Shown in pieces: positions 15,992-19,437 of a stretch of 55,788 nt of DNA. The stretch is taken from positions 1 through 55,788 of the forward strand of contig DSAS01000024.1 of the NCBI GenBank assembly GCA_011046365.1, given 5' to 3'. This DNA is from Fidelibacterota bacterium (GTDB taxonomy: Bacteria; Fidelibacterota; UBA2242). Below the pieces are notes generated by a model. The model was not told the origin of the DNA. It did not search any database and saw only the letters and a list, made by a program, of their open reading frames with translations. Positions within the stretch are counted from its first letter, which is position 1, and the number at the start of each line of letters is the position of its first letter. A program made the translations under genes and the position numbers.

Positions 15992-17126
15992 CAAAAGCGC
16001 AGATCAAAAGCTGTTGAAAATCCTGATTGCCGGTGGCGGCACCGGCGGTCACCTTTTCCCGGCGATTGCCCTGCTGGAGGAGTTTCGGACAAGAGGCTCT
16101 GAAAATTTGAAATTTGAGTTTCTCTTTATCGGTACGGAACACGGGCTGGAATCCTCAGTTTTGCCGAACCTGGGTTATCACTTCCGAAAAATCTGGATTC
16201 GCGGATTTCAGCGCGGCTTTTCGCCCCGAGATATTTTGGTCAATCTACTCTTCCCGGTGCGGCTGCTGGTCAGTTTGGTGCAATCCTATTTCCTGATCCG
16301 ACAGTTCGACCCGGACTTGGCTATCGGTACCGGCGGTTACACTGCAGGACCACCGCTCCGCATCGCCGCAATGCTGAAGGTGCCGATTTTTCTGCATGAA
16401 CAAAACGTCTTCCCCGGAAAAACAACGCGTATGCTCAGTAAACGGGCAAAACGCATCTATACGTCCTTTGAAGATACCCGGGAATATATAGACAACATTA
16501 TCTGTTACGGAACTCCTCTGCGCCGCTCGCTTGAGTCTGTACCCAGAGAGCAAGGAATCCAATTTTTTGAGCTGCAAAACGGTCTCACTACGATATTCAT
16601 TTTCGGTGGAAGTCAGGGCTCAAGGGCAATTAACAACTATTGGAGAGAACATTTGGACAACTTCACAGCCCGATTGACATGTCAATTTATCTGGCAAACG
16701 GGGCAGAATGATTTCGAAGAAATCAAATTTCGCTTCGCCGAAAATCCAAATGTCTACATAACGCCCTTTATTCACGAAATGGGAATCGCCTACTCTGCTT
16801 CCGATATTATTATCAGCCGCGCCGGCGCCCTGACTCTCGCAGAACTCTGTCTCTACGGCAAGCCGTCTATCCTGATCCCGCTCCCTACCGCCGCGGGCAA
16901 CCATCAGGAAATTAATGCCCGGATTATGGAAAAAGAGGGGGCTTCCATCATCATACCGCAGAAGAATCTGAATTCGGAATTAATGGAGATTTCCTTAAAG
17001 GAGATTGTCGAAAATCGGGAGAAACGAGAACAGATGGCACAAAATGCTAAAAAATTGGCTCGCGCGGATTCGGCTAAATTGATTGTTGATGATATTTTAA
17101 AAACCATGACGAGTGATGTTCGGTAA
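15984..17126 (+). CDS. murG: Lipid II synthase MurG (GlcNAc transferase)
   Basis: Peripheral membrane GT28 glycosyltransferase of 380 residues that adds GlcNAc to lipid I, producing lipid II. Motifs are AGGGTGGHLFPAIAL (about 14-28), GTGGYTAGPP, LHEQNVFPGKTTR (about 136-148), FGGSQGSRAIN (about 210-220) and the C-terminal SRAGALTLAEL with PLPTAAGNHQ (UDP-GlcNAc binding). It starts 8 bases inside ftsW and overlaps murC by 11. It has about twenty residues more than E. coli MurG, mostly at the N-terminus. Confidence 0.96.
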   Translation: MADKSADQKLLKILIAGGGTGGHLFPAIALLEEFRTRGSENLKFEFLFIGTEHGLESSVLPNLGYHFRKIWIRGFQRGFSPRDILVNLLFPVRLLVSLVQSYFLIRQFDPDLAIGTGGYTAGPPLRIAAMLKVPIFLHEQNVFPGKTTRMLSKRAKRIYTSFEDTREYIDNIICYGTPLRRSLESVPREQGIQFFELQNGLTTIFIFGGSQGSRAINNYWREHLDNFTARLTCQFIWQTGQNDFEEIKFRFAENPNVYITPFIHEMGIAYSASDIIISRAGALTLAELCLYGKPSILIPLPTAAGNHQEINARIMEKEGASIIIPQKNLNSELMEISLKEIVENREKREQMAQNAKKLARADSAKLIVDDILKTMTSDVR

Positions 17127-18495
17127 CCTGAAAAAAATGCACTTTATCGGAATTGGCGGCATCGGTATGAGCGGTCTGGCGGAGCTTTTAAACCACTGGG
17201 GATACACTGTCAGCGGTTCCGATATTAATTATTCAGACAATATTCTGCGGCTTGAAAAGAGTGGCATCCGTATATTTATCGGACATCATCCAAAAAATCT
17301 GAAGGACGCAGATGTCGTCATCTATACCTCCGCCGTAAGTTCCGACAATCCGGAGCTGTCGAAAGCCCGCAAGCTGGGCATCCCCACCATCAAGCGAGCT
17401 AAAATGCTTGGCGAAATACTCCGCATCCGACCAAACAGTATCGCTGTCTCCGGTACCCACGGGAAAACCACCACTACATCATTGATCGGTCATATCTTCA
17501 CCGAAGCCGGTTGCGACCCACTGATCATATCCGGCGGTGTGATTCAAAAGCTGAATTCCAACGTCCGCAGCGGCAACGGTGATACCATTATTCTGGAAGC
17601 CGACGAATACGATCAATCATTCCTGCAACTCTATCCCACCCACATTGTAATCACCACAATTGACGAGGAACATCTGGAAATTTACAGCGATATGGACAAT
17701 CTGAAGGTGAAATTCACGGAGTTCGCCAACCGGGTGCCCTTTTATGGTAAAGTAATAGCCAATGAAGACGATGCGCACGTGAAGGAAATTTTACCCGAGA
17801 TCACGGTCCCTCTTCTCACCTATTCACTAAAAAGAGAAGCCGATCTACAGGTAAAAAATATCACCCTGCAACAGTCTCACAGCACCTTCAATGTTTATCG
17901 TAATGGTAACCAACTGGGAACGATCAGCCTGCCATTACCCGGTCGGCATAACATTCAGAACTGTTTAGCAGCAATCCTGATCAGTATGGAATACGAACTC
18001 CCTTTCAAAACCATTCAGCAGGCGATTGAGACATTCCGTGGAGTCCAGAGACGCTTTGAAATAGTTTACCAAAGCGAAGACCTGGTACTGGTTGATGATT
18101 ACGCCCACCATCCCGGTGAAATCAAGGCAACCCTACAAGCCGCCCGCCTGGGTTGGAAACGGCGCATAGTGGCTATTTTTCAGCCTCATCTCTATAGCCG
18201 GACACAAAAACTATACAAACGCTTCGCCGAGGAGCTGGAGCACGCTGACGTGCTTATTATCCTCGATGTCTATCCGGCGCGTGAAAAACCGGTACCCGGC
18301 GTATCCGGTCAGCTGATCGAAGGTATTCTCCGGACCAAGGGAATGTCAAATGTCCATTATGTGCACAAACTTGCCGAGGTGCCGAATCTGATTAAGTCAC
18401 TCTACAAACCCGGCGATATGATTATTACCCTCGGCGCCGGGAATGTCAATACTATTATAAAAACAATTAAACAGGATTTAACAACCGGTGGATAA
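17116..18495 (+). CDS. murC: UDP-MurNAc:L-alanine ligase MurC
   Basis: First Mur ligase of the pathway, 459 residues, adding L-alanine to UDP-MurNAc. Visible are the N-terminal HFIGIGGIGMSGLAEL (about 9-24), GYTVSGSDI, the P-loop SGTHGKTTTT (about 113-122), EADEYDQSFL, DDYAHHPGE (about 331-339) and FQPHLYSRT. The ATG at 17116 is chosen; a GTG one codon earlier is possible. It overlaps murG. In many proteobacteria murB and ddl follow, but here a 159-base spacer with unusual properties leads straight to ftsQ. Bacteroidetes clusters also go from murC to ftsQ. Confidence 0.96.
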   Translation: MFGNLKKMHFIGIGGIGMSGLAELLNHWGYTVSGSDINYSDNILRLEKSGIRIFIGHHPKNLKDADVVIYTSAVSSDNPELSKARKLGIPTIKRAKMLGEILRIRPNSIAVSGTHGKTTTTSLIGHIFTEAGCDPLIISGGVIQKLNSNVRSGNGDTIILEADEYDQSFLQLYPTHIVITTIDEEHLEIYSDMDNLKVKFTEFANRVPFYGKVIANEDDAHVKEILPEITVPLLTYSLKREADLQVKNITLQQSHSTFNVYRNGNQLGTISLPLPGRHNIQNCLAAILISMEYELPFKTIQQAIETFRGVQRRFEIVYQSEDLVLVDDYAHHPGEIKATLQAARLGWKRRIVAIFQPHLYSRTQKLYKRFAEELEHADVLIILDVYPAREKPVPGVSGQLIEGILRTKGMSNVHYVHKLAEVPNLIKSLYKPGDMIITLGAGNVNTIIKTIKQDLTTGG

Positions 18496-18658
18496 ATTGA
18501 GTATTAGATCAACTGACAGGTTTACATCAGGGTTCTCAGGCTTTTTGGGGGGCGACCATAAAGGCAGCTGGCTCTATGGTTCGGACGATCGGACCGAATC
18601 CCTTATGGTTTATATTGAGAACCCTGATTTGCCTGTTAAGGACAGTTACAGACAATGA
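18488..18658 (+). CDS. Possible 56-residue small protein between murC and ftsQ
   Basis: An open frame fills the whole murC-ftsQ spacer. It opens at GTG 18488, eight bases inside murC (an in-frame TTG at 18497 is an alternative), and its TGA at 18656-18658 overlaps the ftsQ ATG at 18655 in the ATGA arrangement used at other junctions of this operon. The product is polar, Gly/Ser/Asp-rich and without a membrane helix or known motif (it includes GSWLYGSDDRTESLMVY). No Shine-Dalgarno sequence is evident. The same bases form an extensive inverted repeat, so the open frame may be fortuitous and the RNA structure the real feature. Function unknown. Confidence 0.35.
   Translation: MDKLSIRSTDRFTSGFSGFLGGDHKGSWLYGSDDRTESLMVYIENPDLPVKDSYRQ
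18511..18647 (+). repeat. Nested inverted repeats, likely folded RNA or palindromic element, between murC and ftsQ
   Basis: Three nested stems can be drawn by eye. Outer: AACTGACAGG (18511-18520) plus ATCAGGGTTCTCA (18526-18538) pair with TGAGAACCCTGAT (18616-18628), CCTGT (18632-18636) and CAGTT (18643-18647), leaving one internal loop and one 6-base bulge. Middle: ACCATAA (18555-18561) with TTATGGT (18603-18609), extended by GG/CC. Inner: GG-TTCGG (18578-18584) with CCGAA-T-CC (18594-18601), loop of 9. No T-run follows, so it is not a standard terminator. It could be a leader or attenuator for ftsQAZ, a processing site, or an inserted palindromic repeat. No second copy was noticed in the window. 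Confidence 0.7.
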
Positions 18659-19437
18659 AAACCACAGAAGAAACCAAATATCCGGTAATTAAACTGATTT
18701 TTCGACTGCTTTTCGGGTTGGGATCATTGACCAGCTTCGTTTTCCTGATTTATGGCGCCATTTCCTGGTGCAATTACATTGATCTTTTTAAAGTAAGCGC
18801 AATCAATATCCAGGGCATTTCGATTTTAACGGAAAACGATATTCTCCAGATGGCTGATATCGGTCTTGATATTCATATTCAGTCGCTGGATCCGGCAACC
18901 ATTCAAGCCCGACTTGAACAAAATCCATATATCAAAGCCGCCGCCGTGAGCAAAGCCTATCCCAACCAGGTCAATATTCTCATCAGCGAACGAATACCCA
19001 TTTGCTACATCCATCACAAAGAACTCTTTCTCGTTGACGCTGAGGGTATTGTATTACCCATCCCCAAACAGCCGCTGGGCAGCAATCCACCGGTGATTTC
19101 CGGTTTTGACGATGACTCACTGGACTACCTGCCCGGCTACTATGTGCCCAATCAAAAATTACGGGATATTGTTGAGATTGTTCATGCGACTCTCATATCT
19201 GCACCGGAGCTCTATGCCGAAATATCGGAAATGCATTATTGGGAGAACGGCAATTTTATTTTATATACAGTCAACAGTGGCACACCCATCTATCTGGGTA
19301 ACGGTAATTTGCCCGATCAGCTCAGTATTTTGGCAAATTTTCAAAACCGGTTAAACGGCAGACGCAATTTAAGCGATTATCAATATCTTGATCTTCGCTG
19401 GAATAAACAGATCGTTGTAAAAGAAAGACGTTCATAG
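18655..19437 (+). CDS. ftsQ: Cell division protein FtsQ/DivIB
   Basis: Bitopic division protein of 260 residues: short cytoplasmic tail, one membrane helix (about 14-40), a POTRA domain beginning FKVSAINIQGISILTENDI (about 45-115) and a C-terminal beta domain (about 120-250). FtsQ scaffolds the divisome and binds FtsL-FtsB. Sequence conservation is low, but topology, POTRA signature (Q-x-G-x-S-x-L) and location before ftsA make the call firm. Its ATG overlaps the stop of the small open frame upstream. Confidence 0.92.
   Translation: MKTTEETKYPVIKLIFRLLFGLGSLTSFVFLIYGAISWCNYIDLFKVSAINIQGISILTENDILQMADIGLDIHIQSLDPATIQARLEQNPYIKAAAVSKAYPNQVNILISERIPICYIHHKELFLVDAEGIVLPIPKQPLGSNPPVISGFDDDSLDYLPGYYVPNQKLRDIVEIVHATLISAPELYAEISEMHYWENGNFILYTVNSGTPIYLGNGNLPDQLSILANFQNRLNGRRNLSDYQYLDLRWNKQIVVKERRS

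Follow-up and report, generated by a model that had tools for sequence, protein, structure and literature searches.

What occupies the junction between murC and ftsQ in a Fidelibacterota genome (GCA_011046365.1), and what might it do there? The window, i.e. the whole stretch of DNA analysed here, comprises 55,788 nucleotides of contig DSAS01000024.1, and in it the two genes are separated by a sequence that is both palindromic and open to translation. An initial annotation, made from the letters of the window, had suggested a structured leader, a processing site, a small division protein or an inserted palindromic repeat. The comparisons reported below point to a conserved predicted RNA fold, lying inside an open frame that runs from murC to ftsQ (hereafter referred to as the relay ORF). 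The features of the junction are as follows.

17113..18495, + strand: murC, the gene 5' of the element; Pfam Mur_ligase, Mur_ligase_M and Mur_ligase_C above cut-offs
18488..18658, + strand: relay ORF, GTG start, TGA stop, 56 aa; peptide not conserved
18515..18520, + strand: 5' arm of predicted helix P0 (GACAGG), partner 18632-18637; double-sided changes in 2 of 7 pairs
18526..18538, + strand: 5' arm of predicted helix P1, 13 bp, partner 18616-18628
18547..18552, + strand: G-run of the loop motif GGGGGGYRA, conserved
18554..18560, + strand: 5' arm of predicted helix P2 (GACCATA), partner 18604-18610
18567..18574, + strand: loop motif GCTGGCTC, conserved; 8 of 8 columns invariant (7 sequences)
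18578..18583, + strand: 5' arm of predicted hairpin P3 (GGTTCG), partner 18590-18595
18590..18595, + strand: 3' arm of P3
18604..18610, + strand: 3' arm of P2 (TATGGTT)
18616..18628, + strand: 3' arm of P1
18632..18637, + strand: 3' arm of P0 (CCTGTT)
18655..19437, + strand: ftsQ, the gene 3' of the element; Pfam POTRA_1 and FtsQ_DivIB_C above cut-offs

The annotated open frame, with its start in murC and its TGA over the ftsQ ATG, is real, and extends from the GTG at 18488 to the TGA at 18658. The start lies inside murC, overlapping the murC stop (18495) by 8 nt, and the stop overlaps the ftsQ start in an ATGA, at a spacing of -4 (TGA 18658, ftsQ ATG 18655). No terminator-like site was found in the window, and the three promoter-like sites are all on the - strand.

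Predicted fold of the element

Three nested inverted repeats had been described between 18511 and 18647. This span is matched by a perfect 13-bp repeat found by program (18526-18538/18616-18628) and by two outer repeats identified by eye, GACAGG/CCTGTT (18515-18520/18632-18637) and AACTG/CAGTT (18511-18515/18643-18647), with base 18515 usable by either. The folding calculation that the annotation had called for gave a z-score of -2.47 for the 171 nt, with 2 of 200 shuffled sequences equally stable, and of -4.39 for the 123-nt core, with none of 200 as stable; the cores of six relatives scored -4.10, -2.60, -5.24, -2.14, -3.68 and -4.41. The minimum-energy fold of the window pairs the P2 region differently from the helices listed above, and several minimum-energy folds differ inside P1. 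No family of direct repeats was found in 18400-18760.

Covariation and conserved motifs

For the pair counts I used alignment A10, in which seven junctions are aligned end to end, because the MAFFT alignments A1 and A3 shift P1 by one base in genus g6; alignments A2, A4 and A11, in which the distant genera are poorly aligned, were left out. On A10, the structure listed above (33 pairs) has 89.8% of its 225 cells paired, 10 pairs with double changes and a covariation score of 0.276, while a control with partners slid by 1-3 columns reached at most 45.3% of cells, 4 pairs and a score of 0.117. RNAalifold recovered essentially identical P0, P1, P2 and P3 from the alignment alone. With ten sequences aligned to model R1, 92.9% of the cells are paired and 11 pairs carry double changes, the alignment itself being fitted to the structure. 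I also employed a simple null, with each column evolving on its own along the tree of the seven sequences. Its means are 78.6% of cells paired, 2.8 double-change pairs and 4.1 double-change cells, against 89.8%, 10 and 15 observed, and none of 1,000 such alignments reached any of the three observed measures, the structure having been drawn from the same sequences, which somewhat favours it.

The compensatory changes fall in P0, P1 and P3. Double-sided changes are seen in 5 of the 13 pairs of P1 among seven sequences (6 of 13 among ten), and in three of the six pairs of P3, of which 73.8% of the cells are paired. P2 is conserved, with all its cells paired, two pairs varying by G-U only, and no double change among the seven sequences. 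Reading the structure on the two strands gives 202 (+) and 188 (-) of 225 cells paired, with 21 G-U cells on the + strand and 7 on the - strand, and this excess of G-U favours an RNA read toward ftsQ.

Two loop motifs, GGGGGGYRA and GCUGGCUC, hardly vary. Mean identity across the G-run (columns 35-42) is 0.95, with 6 of 8 columns invariant, against 0.55-0.69 in the neighbouring joiners, and GCTGGCTC has the counterparts GCCGGCTC in L016 and GCTGGTTC in L017. As judged from these comparisons, the element is more than a chance palindrome. Both the covarying pairs and the open frame, whose joint absence from relatives had been named as grounds for abandoning the idea, are present in relatives, and the suggestion of a structured RNA before ftsQ is upheld as a predicted fold with covarying pairs kept among them.

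An invariant 9-mer, AGCAACGCC, marks the element's 3' half in L016, L017, L018, L037 and L019, and is absent from genera g1 and g6, which suggests two putative subtypes of the RNA core. A pairing between the GGC of GCTGGCTC and the GCC of AGCAACGCC, noticed by eye in the distant genera, was dropped; g1 keeps one side only.

Distribution of the element

Junction reading and covariance models together identified the element in 13 of the 23 genomes of the order (G000-G004, G007-G010, G013-G015 and G017). Two of these were counted as carriers by position, P1 sequence and shared motifs, namely G007, with a score of only 18 bits (E 1.61), and G017, which the covariance model missed. The element stands before ftsQ in 11 of the 13 carriers; in the remaining two, G004 and G015, the contig ends before ftsQ, and the end of murC lies just 5' of the element.

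A palindromic repeat present at many unrelated sites, as had been considered, is not supported by this distribution: among the candidates scored, the element occupies one place per carrier genome. In the window's own genome (89% complete) the window holds the only real match, the next being 21 bases long (E 0.36), and covariance model R2 yields one match at E up to 2, with 128 of 1,963 first-look candidates scored. A scan of the phylum (245 genomes, stricter filters, 12 candidates scored per genome) gave matches at E up to 0.01 in 11 genomes, all of them in the element's own family. Echoes on the - strand of the window (E 0.0155) and of L005 were removed before counting.

Several candidate matches were rejected. 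A loose pattern matched 15 of the 245 genomes, five of which are carriers, and the other ten were judged by eye to be without P1. Weak DNA matches were obtained in 16 of 100 genomes, and the 11 outside the family were set aside by eye, while a match in G021 (E 1.98), on a contig other than that of its ftsQ, was taken as chance. A phage origin was discarded, with no match in the phage collection. Rfam has no family at the element (E up to 1, 3 and 5 in separate scans), and the sole listed Rfam match, SNORA49 in L017 (E 1.1), lies elsewhere in that locus.

By covariance model, the element is absent from all four members of genera g2 and g3: ftsQ overlaps the murC stop in L011 and L012, L014 has other sequence, and murC is absent from the locus in L013. 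In the FtsQ tree, where the deeper branching order is not resolved, g2 is placed beside g6 and within the carriers (support 86/82, not among the tree's strongest), a position that suggests the element was probably lost in g2, and would then be dispensable. In G017 (L019/L099) the element sits between ftsQ and a gene with an end resembling that of the window's murG, and murC has no match within the 6 kb read, indicating that the element tracks ftsQ and not murC.

An open frame from murC to ftsQ

The relay ORF was analysed in the ten carriers with readable murC and ftsQ ends. Each of the ten junctions keeps one frame open all the way between the murC stop and the ftsQ start, across gaps of 153-309 nt. 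This is the +1 frame in nine junctions and the +2 frame in L017; L006 has the +2 frame open as well. The relay starts overlap the murC stop (GTG at -8, ATG at -11 or -4), with the exception of L016, where the first start candidate is a TTG at +4 from the murC stop. At the other end, the relay stop lies at -4 from the ftsQ start in six junctions, -1 in L016, +1 in L018 and L037, and +5 in L006. I selected these ftsQ starts from the start codons available in frame, and confirmed that each agrees with the reading frame of the FtsQ match; later in-frame starts exist in L008, L016, L018 and L037. In L008 the murC frame is also open past the murC stop, in frame with ftsQ, so that a longer FtsQ start is possible there.

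Counted as far as 12 nt short of the ftsQ start, the relay frames of the ten junctions contain no stop in 587 codons, while the other two frames contain 73 in 1,173. I estimated the chance that either frame is open by shuffling each junction outside the motifs and P1 arms. With a single junction taken from each genus, this chance is 0.253 (L005), 0.182 (L009), 0.372 (L018), 0.006 (L016) and 0.012 (L017), with a product of 1.2e-6 that ignores shared ancestry among the genera; the other five junctions gave 0.260, 0.073, 0.260, 0.087 and 0.287.

The three carriers left out of these counts are G004, where the relay frame passes P1 and then stops, the contig ending before ftsQ; G015, whose element is disrupted close to where the contig ends; and G017, where no single frame is open through the element. 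The last shows that the predicted RNA can exist without a relay.

The relay peptide

The openness of the frame is conserved, and its peptide is not. Relay-frame pN/pS was calculated for seven pairs (the stopped frame of G004 figures in two) and came to 1.03, 0.93, 1.12, 1.35, 1.26, 0.93 and 0.66, compared to 0.19 (L006/L007) and 0.26 (L009/L010) for ftsQ. The dN/dS-type test that had been proposed for the frame therefore gives a range of 0.66-1.35, with no purifying selection on amino acids. In the other two frames the same pairs span 0.36-2.24, and the relay frame is lowest only in L018/L037. The conserved bases are moreover read differently between lineages, the G-run being split into codons as G-GGG-GGY in L005-L007, L018 and L037, as GG-GGG-GYA in L008-L010 and L017 (L009 has GGGGGAC), and as GGG-GGG-CAA in L016. 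A word-based protein search found no homologue of the relay peptide, and there was no Pfam match. Since pN/pS is near 1, the frame shifts relative to conserved bases and the search gave no homologue, the small division protein envisaged in the initial annotation is not supported.

ftsQ starts and coupling distance

Forty-three ftsQ loci from the order's and the phylum's other families were surveyed, with computed rather than annotated starts and upstream ORFs; in 40 of them an in-frame start lies between -23 and +16 nt of the upstream stop. The exceptions are L121 (+53) and two loci of family f10, L024 (+107) and L027 (+106). In the two genomes of element-free genus g2 there is an 8-nt overlap between murC stop and ftsQ start, the spacing that the relay start has in g1, and in element-free L014 (g3) the ftsQ frame extends to an ATG at -11 of the murC stop, with another ATG further in. 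PMC10666635 reports a steep fall of coupling with distance in native E. coli and H. volcanii gene pairs, with very little left at about 20-38 nt, compared to gaps of 153-309 nt at the junctions here; it also cites other studies in which coupling operates over 73-850 nt, and if the latter is general, no relay would be needed.

The Shine-Dalgarno match of ftsQ is mostly weak or none, as scored with a generic anti-SD sequence, not one taken from the 16S of this genome. The window's ftsQ has the best match of the ten, at -5.8 (background median -2.5, 5th percentile -6.4). The mean unpaired probability of its start region (-20 to +5) is predicted at 0.46 with the element and 0.53 without it. A drop of at least 0.2 is seen only in L037 (0.35 with, 0.65 without) and L017 (0.24 with, 0.53 without), of ten junctions, which argues against a plain start-hiding switch. 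Start sequestration was rejected as a general mechanism, the ftsQ start not being predicted hidden in 8 of 10 junctions.

Two other oddities were observed at these junctions. In family f10, a different palindromic element of about 107 nt lies between murC and ftsQ in L024 (G028) and L027 (G033), with stem changes GCCTCCGAA/TTCGGAGGC versus TCCTCCGGA/TCCGGAGGA. Its core, GAANCCGGCGTACGAGGCAAAGGRCTAAC, is present in 2 of 245 genomes (up to 3 mismatches), only at murC-ftsQ, and an Rfam match to it was not found. It was rejected as being the same RNA as that of the window, as its core differs, and is possibly a second, independent ftsQ leader RNA. In genus g3 (L013 and L014) the ftsQ frame extends far 5', in L014 up to the murC stop, across repeat-like sequence, which in L014 includes TTCGTGTAATTCGTGGAT; this resembles an insertion that has kept the frame and extended the N terminus of FtsQ.

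Discussion

The explanation that I favour, and regard as moderately probable, is that a conserved predicted RNA fold lies within a relay ORF through which ribosomes pass from murC to ftsQ, with the fold setting how much FtsQ is made per MurC. Ribosomes finishing murC would reinitiate at the relay start, unwind the fold as they proceed, terminate at the overlapping relay stop and start anew on ftsQ. With few ribosomes on the message, or with a factor bound to the loop motifs, the fold would hold and slow the relay, and could thereby set the amount of FtsQ, and of the division proteins encoded behind it, relative to MurC. Such a relay accounts for a frame that stays open while its peptide drifts, and I infer from it translational coupling and gating at the murC-ftsQ junction. 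As a model, the original suggestion of a leader setting ftsQAZ expression is plausible. An objection to the fold as a gate is that translation would keep the RNA open for much of the time. I put forward more tentatively that the fold may be an RNA sensor of the wall or division state, held in a peptide-free ORF, and metering the murC ribosomes that reach ftsQ and the division genes.

Other explanations can be weighed against the same observations. The element could be a leader RNA for ftsQAZ that binds a ligand or a protein, riboswitch-like or autoregulatory, with the open frame as a secondary adaptation. The near-invariant loop motifs within covarying helices and the location before ftsQ are as expected for such an RNA, as is G017, which has the element without the relay frame. 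However, no Rfam family matches the element and no terminator-like site is present in the window, the fold clearly lowers ftsQ start access in only 2 of 10 junctions, and the single gene context gives no hint of a ligand, so that I find this reading rather doubtful. It is unlikely that the element is instead a processing or stability site of the mRNA, where an RNase III-type enzyme would cut the long P1 and separate the message levels of murC and ftsQAZ: P1 has 13 bp and is conserved across genera, but the loop motifs would seem more conserved than a cleavage helix needs, and the open frame would be left unexplained.

A mobile element of MIRU type that once landed at the murC-ftsQ overlap, with coupling kept, and is now a functionless relic would have the architecture given for mycobacterial MIRUs in PMC12548453, and the ftsQ frame in g2 and g3 opens at a matching overlap. 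The one place per genome, the absence of direct repeats and base pairs kept across genera, which are unexpected of a relic, make this quite improbable. Least probable is a small division protein: each of the 10 complete junctions has an open frame that reaches the genes on either side, but pN/pS is near 1, three frames are used relative to the same conserved bases, compensatory changes alter the peptide, and the word-based search gave no homologue. This also serves as a caution that conservation of the two ends of an ORF does not by itself imply a functional protein product.

In the literature, titles and abstract openings among the matches listed, mostly without subscription papers, contain no description of the murC-ftsQ element, and the main text of PMC2864571 does not mention ftsQ, murC or ftsZ. 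Structured RNAs and coupling ORFs are each known, while here a conserved fold is apparently wrapped in an open frame that is indifferent to its peptide. The favoured relay would make this junction a natural setting in which to ask whether selection can act on an ORF for ribosome delivery alone. It may also be a point of control linking wall synthesis to division, in a phylum (Neomarinimicrobiota) represented here only by metagenome-assembled genomes.

Comparison with known systems

The spacings between relay stop and ftsQ start (-4, -1, +1 and +5 nt) resemble those of termination-reinitiation coupling at ATGA or TGATG overlaps, with the difference that the relay is a frame around a predicted RNA fold, and not a protein gene. 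Cis-regulatory leader RNAs and riboswitches share with the element covarying helices and near-invariant loop motifs located just before one gene; the element differs from these in having no Rfam match or terminator-like site, in mostly not being predicted to cover the ftsQ start, and in lying inside an open frame within an operon. Attenuator leader-peptide ORFs are known from trpL, tnaC and ermC. These have in common with the relay a foldable RNA that is translated ahead of the controlled gene, whereas the relay peptide is not conserved and the window has no terminator-like site.

MIRUs have direct repeat units. Short ORFs that serve to deliver ribosomes are discussed in a review (PMC12548453), with MIRUs as a possible example. 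The likeness to MIRUs, as described there, consists in a short insert at a start codon, with an ORF coupled to the downstream gene at a spacing of -4 nt; in the murC-ftsQ element, the ORF overlaps or abuts the downstream start in 10 of 10 junctions (-4 to +5 nt, -4 in six). MIRUs are however repetitive and apparently mobile according to PMC12548453, whereas the murC-ftsQ element is found at one place per genome, and is orthologous across genera, with covarying helices and near-fixed loops.
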